A stretch of 64,000 nucleotides of DNA, taken from contig NZ_VMNH01000004.1 in assembly GCF_007625115.1 (NCBI RefSeq), positions 62,001-126,000 of the forward strand. The letters are read 5' to 3'. The position numbers and the translations under genes were made by a program. This document shows, piece after piece, positions 2,302 through 7,028 of the stretch. Source of the DNA: Sedimenticola selenatireducens. Lineage in GTDB: Bacteria; Pseudomonadota; Gammaproteobacteria; Chromatiales; Chromatiaceae. Positions within the stretch are counted from its first letter, which is position 1; every line of letters begins with the position of its first letter. A model generated the notes under the pieces. That model saw nothing but the letters and a program-made list of their open reading frames with translations, had not been told where the DNA came from and made no database searches.

Positions 2302-3033
2302 ATGGCAATCCCGGCATTCAATTTTCAACCACGGCTTATTCCGTCTCTGCTCATTTTAGGTGTGATGCTGCCCCTCTTTTTGAGTCTGGGGATTTGGCAA
2401 ATCGATCGCGCCCAGCAAAAACGCACACTGGCCAATACCATGGAGACTCGGCGTAAACTGCCGCCAGAGATGTTACAGCAAAAGAAAATTAGTGCAGACG
2501 AACTTGAGTTTCGCACCCTCACTGTCACTGGCCACTTTGTACCGGAAAAACAGATCATAATCAGCAATCGAAAATATCTTGGGAAGCCCGGATTTCACAT
2601 CATTACACCCTTACAGATTGAAGGAAGTACTCGTCATATCCTGATTAATCGTGGGTGGGTAGCGGGAACAGGATCAAGTTTACCTGCCATTGAAACACCA
2701 ACACATATCATCACATTGACGGGTGAAATCAACATTCCCTCTGCCCCAGCGATTGAACTGGAATTTGATAAGCACGCCTCGAGCCTGTGGCCATTTCTAA
2801 CGCTGAATAATTTTGCAAGCTGGTCTAACCTTGAGATCACTCCGTTTATTATGCTGCTCTCAGCAAACTCACCACATGGTTTCGTCCGAAGCTGGGAGAG
2901 CGCTCGTCCCGGAGAGGGTATGCACCTTGGCTATGCAACACAGTGGTTTGCTTTTGCACTCCTTGCCTTTCTGCTCTGGTTGAAGCTCTCATTAACACGA
3001 ACCAACTCCATTGCGTCCGGGGTATCCAGATGA
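2302..3033 (+). CDS. SURF1-family cytochrome oxidase assembly protein
   Basis: SURF1/Shy1 proteins help insert or retain heme a in subunit I. The 243-residue product has the family layout: an N-terminal membrane helix (about 12-31) ending in LGIWQIDRAQQKR, a periplasmic domain with RTLTVTGHFVPEKQ and ILINRGWVAG, and a C-terminal membrane helix preceded by HLGYATQWFAF. No strong ribosome-binding site is visible before the ATG. Its stop overlaps the start of the next gene by four bases (ATGA), so it is coupled to the SCO-like gene downstream. Confidence 0.95.
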   Translation: MAIPAFNFQPRLIPSLLILGVMLPLFLSLGIWQIDRAQQKRTLANTMETRRKLPPEMLQQKKISADELEFRTLTVTGHFVPEKQIIISNRKYLGKPGFHIITPLQIEGSTRHILINRGWVAGTGSSLPAIETPTHIITLTGEINIPSAPAIELEFDKHASSLWPFLTLNNFASWSNLEITPFIMLLSANSPHGFVRSWESARPGEGMHLGYATQWFAFALLAFLLWLKLSLTRTNSIASGVSR

Positions 3034-3662
3034 CAGAAACCCTGCGTAGAACACCAGCCCCTGTGTCACTCATTCTGCTGATATTAGTATTTGGTCTGCC
3101 ACCCGCTGCGGGCTGGCTCTTTATCAGCAATCCGCAGTGGTTGCCAGATCGACATAAAAATCGCGGTACATTAATTTCACCCCCCAGACCATTGAATGAG
3201 CTGATCTTAAAAGACACCAAGAACAGAAACTTTGACTGGGCGAACCTGAGTGGACACTGGACGCTGGCATCCTACAACAAAGGGGGGTGTGAGTCGGCCT
3301 GCCAACAGCAGCTCCATGAAATTCAACAAATCAGGCGTGCTGTAGGCGGCGAGCGCGTTCGAATAGAGCGGATGCTGATACAGAATGCACCCTCCGATCC
3401 ACAGATCCTTGCACAATTGGCCGACCAAACAAAAGGCATGCACCTGTTGTTTCTGGAATCGGATAACCAGCACACATTCAATAAGCTGTTTTCCGTTGCC
3501 GGGGTTCACTCCGACGGCGCTATCTTCTTGATTGACCCCAATGGCATGCTAATGATGGGGTATGGTGCGAAAAACAGTTCAAAAGATATTTTGAAAGATC
3601 TCGAAATACTGCTTAAAGCATCCAGTAACTGGACAAAAGGAGTCAATAATGGCCACGGGTGA
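3030..3662 (+). CDS. membrane-anchored SCO-like thioredoxin-fold protein of the oxidase cluster
   Basis: Homologues of this 210-residue protein are usually left as hypothetical in cytochrome oxidase clusters. It has one N-terminal membrane helix (about 12-33) and a periplasmic domain with features of SCO copper chaperones: a CX3C pair at Cys87 and Cys91 (GGCESACQQQL) and His160 just before SDGAIFLIDPNG. This mirrors the CxxxC and the His-Ser before the last strand of the true SCO protein encoded at 7025-7708. The start overlaps the SURF1 stop and its end overlaps the heme O synthase start by 14 bases. A role in CuA loading or thiol reduction is inferred. Confidence 0.78.
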   Translation: MTETLRRTPAPVSLILLILVFGLPPAAGWLFISNPQWLPDRHKNRGTLISPPRPLNELILKDTKNRNFDWANLSGHWTLASYNKGGCESACQQQLHEIQQIRRAVGGERVRIERMLIQNAPSDPQILAQLADQTKGMHLLFLESDNQHTFNKLFSVAGVHSDGAIFLIDPNGMLMMGYGAKNSSKDILKDLEILLKASSNWTKGVNNGHG

Positions 3663-4569
3663 AATCTCCCTGCAAGACGATAGAACGATTACCTGGCGAC
3701 GTTATTATGAGATGACCAAACCCAAGGTGGTGTTATTGATTGCCTTTACTGCGTTGGTTGGCATGCTCCTATCCACACCTGGAGCCGTTCCGCTCCAACC
3801 GCTTATATTTGGCCTTGTGGGTATATCCCTTGCGGCGGCTAGTGGTGCAGTTATTAACCACATTCTGGACCAACGCATAGATGCCCTGATGGAACGCACA
3901 CACCGCAGACCTCTGCCCAGTGGACATATGGATAATCCACACGCCGTCAGTTTTGCGTTACTGCTGGCCGTCGCCGCCATGCTCATGTTGGGAACCCAAG
4001 TCAACTTGCTAACAGCCGGACTGACGTTTCTGGCACTGATCGGCTACGCATTCATCTATACCCTCTATCTCAAACGAAATACCCCGCAAAACATTGTGTG
4101 GGGGGGGCTCGCCGGAGCCGCACCGCCTCTACTCGGATGGTGCGCAATCACCAACAATGTTCCGCTGGAAGCCTTTCTGCTGTTGATGATTATCTTTATC
4201 TGGACCCCGCCCCACTTCTGGCCACTCGCCATCCACCGCCAGAAAGAGTATGCCCGCGCCAATATCCCGATGCTGCCTATTACCCATGGCGTGGCCTTTA
4301 CCAAGCAACAGATCCTACTCTATAGCCTGATGCTGTTAGCGGTATCCTTGATGCCATTCATGATCCACATGAGCGGCTATATCTATCTACTGGGTGCCGT
4401 AATCCTTGGCGTAATGTTTATTGGACATGCCTTCAAACTCTGGCGCAGCAGCGACAACAAGCATGCAATGAAGACCTTTGGTTTCTCCATTGTCTATCTG
4501 AGCCTGCTATTTACACTGCTATTGGTCGATCACTACCTGGTGATCTATTTCCCTGGGTTGGGATCATGA
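3649..4569 (+). CDS. ctaB: protoheme IX farnesyltransferase (heme O synthase)
   Basis: Integral membrane prenyltransferase that adds a farnesyl group to heme b to give heme O, the precursor of heme A. The 306-residue protein has about nine membrane helices and the UbiA-type aspartate motif in NHILDQRIDALMERTHRRPL, followed by LYLKRNTPQNIVWGGLAGA. AAAGGAG precedes the ATG by six bases, and the start lies inside the end of the SCO-like gene. Its stop overlaps that of the convergent oxidase-like gene by six bases. With ctaA at 6006 it supplies heme A to the aa3 enzyme. Confidence 0.97.
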   Translation: MATGEISLQDDRTITWRRYYEMTKPKVVLLIAFTALVGMLLSTPGAVPLQPLIFGLVGISLAAASGAVINHILDQRIDALMERTHRRPLPSGHMDNPHAVSFALLLAVAAMLMLGTQVNLLTAGLTFLALIGYAFIYTLYLKRNTPQNIVWGGLAGAAPPLLGWCAITNNVPLEAFLLLMIIFIWTPPHFWPLAIHRQKEYARANIPMLPITHGVAFTKQQILLYSLMLLAVSLMPFMIHMSGYIYLLGAVILGVMFIGHAFKLWRSSDNKHAMKTFGFSIVYLSLLFTLLLVDHYLVIYFPGLGS

Positions 4570-5931
4570 GGCCTCTGTAGCGGAGTTCTCAGGGCCTTTC
4601 ATAAACGCCCTGAGCATAATCCAGACAAAGAGTATTCCGCCTATTACTGCCAACAGGCCGCCAATACCCATCACACCCATGGCCAGTTTAGCGCTGAGAC
4701 TCTCTAGTCCTTGCGCTGCTCCGGCGGTCTTACGCTGAATACCCATAAATCCGGAAACGGCTAAACCACCGACATGCAGGATCTGTCCAACACCATAGAT
4801 AATCGGTTGTGCCGCAGCTAATCGTCCCGTAACAGCCGCATATCCCAGCTTTGGTAACAGCATATAGGCAAACCCCATAAGCGCCAGTGTTACACCGACT
4901 ATGGAACCATGATAATGCGCGGGGATGACGGTATTGATGCCAGTGATCATCATGGCAATCAAACCACCCAAACCAAACAACAATAACGACATCCACAGCG
5001 CCATGCGCAAAGGTCGGGCCTCTTCCATGAGATCGTGACGATTTTGAAACAGGCTATAGATCACCAGTAATCCAACAGGAATAGCGGGGAAACCACCCCC
5101 ATATTGCATCAACTGGGTAAAAGCAATGCGCATCTCAGCAGAGACAGGATCATAACGCGCATAGATAACCACAACCCAGAGCAGAGGCAGCAGTCCCAGC
5201 AACACCAATCCATTAATAATGATCGGCCTAACAGGAAGTCGAGCTCCACTGGCTGCCAACAGCAGTAACCAGGCCAGCAACAGCAATTGGGTATAGGCGA
5301 ACTGCAATACGTGCCCGGCACCCCAGAAAAGATATTCGTAGTAGGCTGCCCCATCCAACTCTGTGGGCATACTGATCCAGGTGTAGATCAGGACAATTAT
5401 GGCTGTGGCGCAGGCAACCGCTACGGTAAAAGCAGCAATTCTGACCAAACCATTAGGCTCGTTAAATAGTTTTCGTTGCCGAACCTGACTCAGCAACAGT
5501 ACAAGCCGAAGTGCAACACCTATACCCACCAGCCCCAACGCGCCAAAGAAAAGCGGACGCTGCAATACCGGCACATAGTTATTCATCAGTGGAGCACCGC
5601 TCCCATAGAATGCCGCCAGTGCAATACCTACCGTTCCAGCCAGCATCAACAGATAAGCGGCAAACGCAAGACCCGTTCGTTGTCCCCCATCATAGGCCAG
5701 CGACCAGACCACTCCCGCCATAGCCAAAAACCAGATCAAAACAGATTGATCCACATGAACAACCAATGCAGTGCGGAAAAAATCGATCCAGGGAAAAAAC
5801 TGCTCCATACCGGGCGAACGGGAGAGTACCAACAAGATCGCAAACAGACCGGCAATAGCTAAGGCAAGCACGCCAAGTTGCAGCCAGCGCCTTGTCTCGC
5901 GCTGCTGAGTAACACTCAATGGTCCAAGCAC
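4564..5931 (-). CDS. diverged heme-copper oxidase subunit I-like protein lacking the paired CuB histidines
   Basis: A 455-residue, roughly 12-helix membrane protein of the heme-copper oxidase superfamily. Visible ligand candidates are His59 in helix II (VVHVDQSVLIW), His207 in helix VI (FWGAGHVLQFAYTQ) and the His339-x-His341 pair in helix X (IPAHYHGSIVG). These match the low-spin heme pair, the high-spin heme ligand and one CuB ligand. The consecutive HH expected in helix VII, present in CcoN of this window as AHHLQYT, is absent; that stretch reads FTQLMQYGGGFPAIP. The helix VI tyrosine and glutamate signatures of A-type oxidases are also missing. It lies between the two heme-synthesis genes on the opposite strand. 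Oxygen reduction is doubtful; heme sensing, heme handling or a different redox reaction are possible. Confidence 0.72.
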   Translation of the reverse strand: MLGPLSVTQQRETRRWLQLGVLALAIAGLFAILLVLSRSPGMEQFFPWIDFFRTALVVHVDQSVLIWFLAMAGVVWSLAYDGGQRTGLAFAAYLLMLAGTVGIALAAFYGSGAPLMNNYVPVLQRPLFFGALGLVGIGVALRLVLLLSQVRQRKLFNEPNGLVRIAAFTVAVACATAIIVLIYTWISMPTELDGAAYYEYLFWGAGHVLQFAYTQLLLLAWLLLLAASGARLPVRPIIINGLVLLGLLPLLWVVVIYARYDPVSAEMRIAFTQLMQYGGGFPAIPVGLLVIYSLFQNRHDLMEEARPLRMALWMSLLLFGLGGLIAMMITGINTVIPAHYHGSIVGVTLALMGFAYMLLPKLGYAAVTGRLAAAQPIIYGVGQILHVGGLAVSGFMGIQRKTAGAAQGLESLSAKLAMGVMGIGGLLAVIGGILFVWIMLRAFMKGPENSATEAS

Positions 5932-6005
5932 TTGTATCCCATCCCTTTCACCTATATAAACATATAACCTATCACAACATTAGGCCCTTCACCGCACCCT
6001 TTGGT

Positions 6006-7028
6006 ATGCAGATTAATTCACTGATACAAGCTCGGTTTGCTCTTTGGGTAACGCTACTGGCCCTGGTGGTTATTCTGTTAGGGGCCTATGTTCGTTTGTC
6101 TGATGCAGGACTTGGCTGCCCAGACTGGCCCGGTTGCTACGGAAAGCTGATTGTACCTTCATCAGAAGCCGAGATCGCTTCCGCCAATACCATCTATCCG
6201 CACAGGCCACTGGAAACCGACAAGGCTTGGAAAGAGATGGTACACCGCTATCTAGCGAGCACACTGGGCCTCTGTATTCTTGCTTTGGCTGTTATTGCAC
6301 TGCGGCGACGGGATCAGGCTGGGCAGCCTCTACTAGTCCCATGGACATTGGCGTTGCTTGTTGCCCTCCAAGGTGCCCTCGGCATGTGGACGGTAACCCT
6401 ACAGGTCAAACCCATCATTGTAACGGCTCACCTGTTAGGTGGGCTGGCGACAATAGCCCTGCTCTGGATACTGACACTAAAGCTGTACAGTCCATCCATT
6501 AATCCTTATGTCATCTACCACAACCGCCGACTGCTTTGGCTAAGTCGGTTTGGCGTAGTTATTCTCTTGATGCAAATTCTTTTAGGCGGCTGGACAAGCA
6601 CTAACTACGCTGCCATCGGATGCACGGACTTCCCCACCTGCCATAGCGGGCAATGGTGGCCCACACTCGCAATGAAAGAAGCCTTTACCCTGTGGCATGG
6701 TACAGACATAAACTTTGAGTATGGCATTCTGAGTGCTGAAGCGAGGACTACCATTCATATGATGCATCGGCTTGGGGCCTTGGCTACAGCACTCTATCTA
6801 TCAATCCTGTGCATCACGCTCTATCGAATCGGCAGGGCAACTATCACACATAAGATGGCGTGGGTAATTGGTCTATTACTATCATTGCAAGTAGGGTTGG
6901 GGATCACCAATGTCCTTGGTCATTTACCCTTACCTATTGCAGTCGCACACAACGGTGTCGCGGCACTTTTACTGCTAACCTTACTTACACTTAATTGGCA
7001 GCTAAAGCGCGCGTACACGATGGGATGA
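6006..7028 (+). CDS. ctaA: heme A synthase (COX15/CtaA)
   Basis: Converts heme O to heme A by oxidising a ring methyl group, in the inner membrane. The 340-residue product has about eight helices in two halves, each with paired histidines (MVHRYLAS, TAHLL, MMHRLGAL, VAHNG) and extracytoplasmic cysteine loops, GLGCPDWPGCYGK and CTDFPTCHSG. The ATG at 6006 is preferred over an upstream start at 5919, because the latter adds 29 polar residues and overlaps the divergent oxidase-like gene. Its stop overlaps the start of the SCO gene (ATGA). Confidence 0.96.
   Translation: MQINSLIQARFALWVTLLALVVILLGAYVRLSDAGLGCPDWPGCYGKLIVPSSEAEIASANTIYPHRPLETDKAWKEMVHRYLASTLGLCILALAVIALRRRDQAGQPLLVPWTLALLVALQGALGMWTVTLQVKPIIVTAHLLGGLATIALLWILTLKLYSPSINPYVIYHNRRLLWLSRFGVVILLMQILLGGWTSTNYAAIGCTDFPTCHSGQWWPTLAMKEAFTLWHGTDINFEYGILSAEARTTIHMMHRLGALATALYLSILCITLYRIGRATITHKMAWVIGLLLSLQVGLGITNVLGHLPLPIAVAHNGVAALLLLTLLTLNWQLKRAYTMG

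Follow-up and report, generated by a model that had tools for sequence, protein, structure and literature searches.

The 64,000-nucleotide stretch of Sedimenticola selenatireducens DNA analysed here (contig NZ_VMNH01000004.1, positions 62,001 to 126,000; hereafter the window) carries, between the heme-synthesis genes ctaB and ctaA, a reverse-strand open reading frame (ORF) for a 455-residue protein which, according to its structural model, has the subunit I fold of the heme-copper oxidases (HCOs), with 12 predicted membrane helices. All heme ligand positions of that fold are kept, but the histidine pair of the copper site, CuB, is missing, and alignments of its homologues indicate that this copper-less subunit is not a single-gene oddity but belongs to a conserved family. 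The gene and the positions on which this description rests are as follows.

4564–5931, reverse strand: copper-less HCO subunit I-like gene (ORF with translation, 455 residues, GTG start)
5755–5757, reverse strand: His59 in helix II, a ligand position of the low-spin heme (all 112 family rows; histidine in every control HCO class)
5311–5313, reverse strand: His207, helix VI, first CuB ligand position (112 of 112 family rows)
5299–5301, reverse strand: Phe211, position of the active-site Tyr of O2 reductases or Gln of eNOR (from the alignment)
5161–5166, reverse strand: Ile256-Tyr257, site of the absent CuB His-His pair (aligned with the pair of eNOR-type proteins)
5092–5121, reverse strand: FTQLMQYGGG, residues 271–280, helix VIII (model and alignment)
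4909–4917, reverse strand: His339-Tyr-His341, helix X, high-spin (339) and low-spin (341) heme ligand positions (111 of 111 untruncated rows)
4774–4776, reverse strand: His386, helix XI (104 of 105 main-branch proteins, 0 of 13 CcsA-linked ones)
4729–4734, reverse strand: Arg400-Lys401 (Arg and Lys in all 111 family rows that are not truncated)

The Pfam COX1 model (PF00115) recognises the protein with 45 bits (curated cut-off, 34.8); there was no match to any NCBIfam model, nor one in the PDB when phmmer was run with the single sequence. AlphaFold2, given 18 relatives, predicts a structure (predicted local distance difference test score, 81; predicted template modelling score, 0.88) of 12 long helices, whose best Foldseek match is a ba3 oxidase (E 8.1e-08; template modelling score about 0.75 of the query). 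VIA comparisons gave Z scores of 28.3 to an aa3 oxidase, 27.5 to a cNOR-type nitric oxide reductase (NOR) and 27.2 to a cbb3 oxidase; the best 50 VIA matches, which include aa3, ba3, cbb3 and cNOR structures, lie between Z 25.9 and 28.3 over 399–426 residues. By entry title, the best 50 Foldseek and the best 50 VIA matches are all oxidases, oxidase supercomplexes or NORs. The family profile also matches PDB entry 7deg (E 0.0061), which we take to be a B-type oxidase, with the histidines of helices VI and X aligned. Elsewhere in the family the COX1 score falls away: two other members score 33.7–33.9, just below the cut-off, and a CcsA-linked member (L054) has no match at 1e-3.

The protein has six histidines (59, 207, 299, 339, 341 and 386). 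An initial annotation, made from the letters of the window alone, had placed four of them, His59, His207, His339 and His341, in the expected helices of a subunit I fold, and model and alignment agree with this placement; the list overlooked His386, which is nearly invariant in the main branch. Three of the four correspond to heme ligand positions. By alignment, the bis-histidine low-spin ligand positions are present as His59 in helix II and His341 in helix X, and the proximal histidine of the high-spin heme is retained as His339. His207 instead occupies a CuB ligand position, so that one of the three CuB ligands is kept and the three-histidine CuB/FeB site is incomplete. Arg400-Lys401, presumably at the position of the heme-propionate arginine pair of HCOs, has Arg-Arg as its counterpart in A-type and eNOR-type HCOs.

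The absence of the CuB pair, which the initial annotation had also claimed, was borne out throughout the alignment of 112 family rows (106 from the main branch, five CcsA-linked and L132; L146 was excluded as an eNOR-type subunit): none of them has it, and the controls do. The control alignment comprised 39 HCO rows of five classes. Adjacent histidines fall within the stretch aligned to residues 252–262 in all A-type (8/8), C-type (6/6), cNOR (2/2) and B-like (2/2) sequences, and exactly at 256–257, by column count, in all 21 eNOR-type rows, two of which (L131 and L197) are one gene. Since the controls show the pair at the aligned stretch, its absence from the family is attributable neither to chance nor to gross misalignment. 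The site is thus Ile256-Tyr257, where helix VII (residues 236–259 in the model) ends; the initial annotation had read FTQLMQYGGG as the replaced pair, in error, given that this motif belongs to helix VIII, although it had correctly located the intact pair of the window's CcoN at 257–258. A shift of the pair to a nearby residue was considered and rejected, as no adjacent histidines occur within the stretch aligned to residues 248–264 in the 112 rows; three of the rows have such a pair elsewhere in the core.

The catalytic residue of helix VI is likewise absent here and in most of the main branch. At position 211, the 106 main-branch proteins have Phe (101), Tyr (4) or Leu (1), where A-type controls have Tyr (8/8) and eNOR-type controls Gln (21/21). 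C-type HCOs carry their active-site Tyr at another place, and the comparison concerns the helix VI position, at which Tyr or the Glu, Gln, Asn or Asp of NORs was sought. The residue classes follow the table of PMC8756737, which gives Gln for eNOR. The Gln at +4 of the helix VI histidine and the His-His pair that mark an eNOR are thus replaced by Phe211 and Ile256-Tyr257. Position 257 is Tyr in 61, His in 25 and Phe in 10 of the 106 main-branch proteins, and Gln210 is invariant across the 112 aligned rows, the divergent CcsA-linked L166 being a member that lacks it. Taken together, a heme pair without a proper CuB, as the initial annotation put it, is what the sequences of the whole family suggest.

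Family members were sought with a profile search in sampled genomes of Pseudomonadota, which gave matches in 51 of 369 genomes of the window's class and 60 of 398 genomes of the phylum, some of them eNOR-type subunits only. A family member above 120 bits occurs in 46 of the 369 class genomes; one further genome (G094) has only a CcsA-linked member, which at 85 bits stays below that threshold. In a maximum-likelihood tree calculated with a quick method, the family forms one clade on a long stem (Shimodaira–Hasegawa-like approximate likelihood ratio test (SH-aLRT) support, 100), whose sister group among the HCO classes sampled is the eNOR-type subunits, the two being joined with SH-aLRT 99; several long branches were flagged and B-type sequences are few, leaving the finer order unsure. 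The CcsA-type group of this tree also holds L132, L160 and L165, none of which is CcsA-linked by its neighbourhood. The name eNOR-type for the neighbouring enzyme refers to its helix VI sequence, GHSSQQ, in which Gln stands where O2 reductases have Tyr; the nearest solved relatives of this subunit are ba3 oxidases. Judged by the window's protein, the closest named relatives are strains of Sedimenticola, with 75–76% identity for the top three; a plasmid search gave no match.

In the window, the copper-less gene is convergent with ctaB and divergent from ctaA within an aa3 oxidase cluster, whose order is the end of CtaD, CtaG, COX3, SURF1, a PA0111-like gene, ctaB, the copper-less gene, ctaA and SCO. 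The neighbours relevant to heme are the following.

3649–4569, forward strand: ctaB, heme O synthase (TIGR01473, 326 bits)
5919–7028, forward strand: ctaA, heme A synthase, longest ORF (PF02628, 257 bits)
2302–3033, forward strand: SURF1 (PF02104), part of the same aa3 cluster

The copper-less ORF and the longest ctaA ORF overlap by 13 bases. That ctaA ORF begins inside the divergent gene, and an ATG at 6006 is likely to be the true ctaA start, in which case about 74 bp of upstream sequence would be common to the two genes; a scan of the sequence for promoters and terminators found no more signals than in shuffles. The PA0111-family-like protein (window 2943–3662, forward strand) is a weak match, scoring 46.7 bits where the cut-off is 230, and also has a sub-threshold SCO1 match; its ORF runs over the end of SURF1 and probably has a later start. 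The host genome, of 4.03 Mb, has four COX1 matches, among which none scores as eNOR-like, and no match to the cytochrome b-ferredoxin-FlpD fusion described below was found in it, in a search that had no positive control.

The position between ctaB and ctaA had suggested a heme-related role to the initial annotation, and a survey of other genomes strengthened this suggestion. The neighbourhoods compared come from 95 fetched stretches with 92 family loci; these count one gene twice, as L031 and L055, and include two pieces from a single genome, L157 and L158. At 40 loci ctaA is at most 2.5 kb away and neither an eNOR nor a cytochrome b-ferredoxin fusion gene is near (17 of the 40 also have ctaB); two have the fusion gene together with ctaA, 16 belong to eNOR clusters, four have only the fusion gene, five only ctaB, two only an A-type COX1 gene, 13 have ccsA, and 10 have other contexts. 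The A-type COX1 loci, L152 and L160, have no ctaA near; the L160 gene (7453–8940), on a long branch, is a second copy in its genome (G179) and keeps His386. The flanks fetched for L127, L129, L130, L135, L141 and L149 (about 4.6–8.5 kb) hold none of the usual partners at the distances applied.

Outside the window's class, where 54 loci in 51 genomes were kept and the removal of G746, which belongs to that class, left 53 loci in 50 genomes, ctaA lies within 400 bp of the family gene at 28 of 53 loci, in 26 of 50 genomes, and CtaA is present in 49 of the 50 genomes with a main-branch member. This survey left out 21 rows of about 110–380 bits (second copies, CcsA-linked members and fragments) and all rows below 100 bits. 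Two gene orders account for the 28 adjacent loci: at 16, all of family code f207, the family gene precedes a codirectional ctaA, and at 12, from family codes f205, f211, f215, f217 and f222, the two genes diverge. A third order, with ctaA upstream and codirectional, occurs at the closely related L028 and L029, where the fusion gene is followed by ctaA and then by the copper-less gene, and no eNOR was found. Three gene orders with the same partner would point to selection on the linkage rather than to one inherited arrangement. At L121 (8200–12042), the copper-less gene is divergent from ctaA, which is followed by a gene resembling, by eye, 5-aminolevulinate synthase; no oxidase marker besides the family gene was found in 18 kb.

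Co-occurrence points in the same direction, with p values that take no account of kinship between genomes. Of the 46 class-sample genomes with a family member above 120 bits, 41 carry CtaA, as do 196 of the 323 others (p 1e-4). Three of the five member genomes without CtaA (G299, G368 and G397) have, like G094, the CcsA-linked type only; adding G094 gives 41/47 against 196/322 (p 3e-4), and setting aside all four such genomes gives 41/43 against 196/322 (p 2e-6).

The eNOR clusters form a second setting. The copper-less gene stands at the end of 16 of them, which contain subunit I (16), subunit II (16), a SCO gene (15), a small protein (15) and a heme O synthase-like gene (13); nine of the 16 have ctaA within 9 kb. 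In all 16 there is also a gene for a cytochrome b-ferredoxin-FlpD fusion, in which, at L048 (6862–8541) and in its homologues, a cytochrome b, 4Fe-4S motifs and an FlpD domain are joined.

A third setting is that of the side branch adjoining ccsA at 13 of the 92 loci (L054, L133, L134, L154–L156, L159, L161–L164, L166 and L167), on the same strand in 12 and on the opposite strand in L166. The fetched stretches of these loci hold resB (12), a multiheme cytochrome (12), TPR (12), NHL-repeat (10, the match at L155 being distant) and TlpA-like (5) genes. The CcsA-linked members retain His59, His207, His339 and His341, and none of the 13 has His386, which is also missing in L132 and L165, members of neither the ctaA/HCO nor the CcsA context. 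With His386 present in nearly all of the main branch and in L160, this residue appears largely to follow the partner.

Known O2 and NO reductase mechanisms of the HCO superfamily need CuB together with a Tyr, Gln or Glu, and with both lacking these mechanisms are out of reach for the copper-less protein, for which O2 or NO reductase activity is unlikely. As the gene so often adjoins ctaA, a role in making or delivering heme seems a better fit than one in O2 respiration, and our tentative preference is to regard the protein, from sequence comparisons, as an HCO subunit I relative with two hemes and no copper, which may serve CtaA as a membrane partner in heme maturation. The protein would bind two hemes, one held by His59 and His341 and the other by His339, and His207, which in HCOs faces the second heme, would be available either to occupy the sixth coordination position of that heme or to gate it. 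The protein could then link the quinone pool with CtaA as an electron carrier or, alternatively, hold heme O or heme A between CtaA and the oxidase. We rank the redox partner before the heme holder because two close hemes without a catalytic metal are what one expects in an electron-transfer cytochrome. A second reason is the place of the side branch beside CcsA/ResB, a system in which heme likewise has to stay reduced. His386, present in the ctaA-linked branch as opposed to the CcsA-linked one, may be part of a surface or pocket for heme O, heme A or CtaA. Taken further, the copper-free lineage might be a dedicated redox partner of CtaA that supplies or drains the electrons of heme O oxidation, perhaps allowing heme A to be made at very low oxygen, with the sister branch doing the same for CcsA/ResB and the fold acting as a general electron shuttle of heme maturation; in this full form we think the proposal unlikely.

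Several observations weigh against a partnership with CtaA. The linkage to eNOR clusters also fits a respiratory electron-transfer role, and 10 of the 92 family loci show none of the expected neighbours. The gene is absent from 196 of the 237 CtaA-bearing genomes of the class sample, so that the protein can at most be an optional partner of CtaA and not a general requirement. Conversely, no CtaA was found in three genomes with a main-branch member (G469 outside the class, G247 and G291 within it), and counting every match, CtaA is missing from six of the 59 phylum-sample genomes checked (of 60 matched, with the window's own excluded). The linkage counts, moreover, are not independent, because L001–L033 are mostly close relatives and L031 is L055, and 14 of the 26 genomes with an adjacent ctaA come from one family.

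Among other explanations, the protein could be a heme chaperone, a catalytically dead look-alike of subunit I that takes heme O or A from CtaA and hands it to subunit I of an oxidase or eNOR, as has been proposed for SURF1. Its fold and heme ligand positions are those of the final acceptor, and its neighbours include ctaA, ctaB and SURF1, the last of which has been suggested to store heme A transiently and to chaperone its insertion (PMC9145763). However, SURF1 is already encoded in the same cluster here, and the CcsA-linked branch goes with c-type cytochrome maturation. The heme of that pathway is heme B, which also counts against a chaperone, and we regard this explanation as possible but doubtful. 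A respiratory module, in which a quinol-oxidising diheme cytochrome feeds eNOR, aa3 or periplasmic multiheme cytochromes, is a real rival because the members in eNOR clusters share them with the cytochrome b-ferredoxin fusion (16/16), and a multiheme cytochrome accompanies 12 of the 13 CcsA-linked clusters; yet loci such as L121 pair the gene with ctaA with no oxidase genes near, and the window's own genome yielded neither a match to the fusion, in the search already noted, nor an eNOR-like COX1 score, which leaves this rival rather improbable.

The initial annotation had also raised the idea of a heme-dependent sensor, which is not favoured, because the protein consists of membrane helices throughout, with no extra domain in the model. 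Reaction of an open high-spin heme with NO, O2 or H2S in a copper-free manner, at a site lined by His207, Gln210 and Tyr or His at 257, would suit the retention of the first two residues in 112 of 112 aligned rows, the presence of Tyr or His at 257 in 86 of 106 main-branch proteins and the kinship with eNOR in the tree; against such a gas-binding enzyme or scavenger stand the Phe at the active-site Tyr/Gln/Glu position in 101 of 106, the lack of a second conserved set of metal ligands and the loss of Gln210 in the divergent L166, and we give it little credence. The missing CuB ligands might also be those of a decaying or non-functional oxidase subunit, but 24 polar or aromatic positions, heme ligands included, are at least 95% conserved across the 106 main-branch proteins, which makes decay scarcely believable; a pseudogene was rejected on the same conservation.

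The HCO fold and superfamily are already known, and the copper-less branch lacks the three-histidine copper site that defines the superfamily, which takes its name from CuB. Among the titles and abstract openings listed in the literature searches, no account of a subunit I lineage lacking CuB was seen, although one may exist in work on NOR diversity or on CtaA crystal structures. Within the portions available, PMC9145763 (on oxidase assembly factors), PMC3772326, PMC8756737, PMC4013037, PMC8835132, and PMC12808453 and PMC8239418 (both on heme A synthase neighbourhoods) describe no such subunit. A conserved branch without CuB but with all heme ligand positions suggests that the scaffold is usable without its catalytic metal, and automatic COX1 matches in such genomes should be treated with caution, as not all are terminal oxidases. 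The source or sink of the electrons handled by bacterial heme A synthase is, to our knowledge, unsettled; if the copper-less protein serves CtaA, it would offer a handle on the question.

Compared with known systems, the nearest sampled HCO class is the eNOR-type NOR subunit I (joint clade, SH-aLRT 99), which shares the heme ligand positions and the Gln at +3 of the helix VI histidine and lies in the same gene cluster as the copper-less gene at 16 of 92 loci. The copper-less protein differs from it in having no His-His pair, Phe rather than Gln at +4, about 455 rather than about 570 residues, and Arg-Lys rather than Arg-Arg. The best Foldseek match, ba3 (B-type) subunit I, has the CuB pair and active-site Tyr that the copper-less protein lacks, at 18–21% identity in structural alignments, and the family's place relative to the B-type is unsettled with few B-type sequences in the tree. 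SURF1, with its proposed role in holding heme A (PMC9145763), is encoded near ctaA and ctaB in the same cluster, whereas the copper-less protein belongs to a different Pfam family and SURF1 has a separate gene. With CcsA/ResB (System II), the likeness lies in the side branch encoded beside ccsA at 13 of 92 loci; in contrast to those proteins, the copper-less protein carries the HCO ligand pattern, and its gene is separate from both ccsA and resB.

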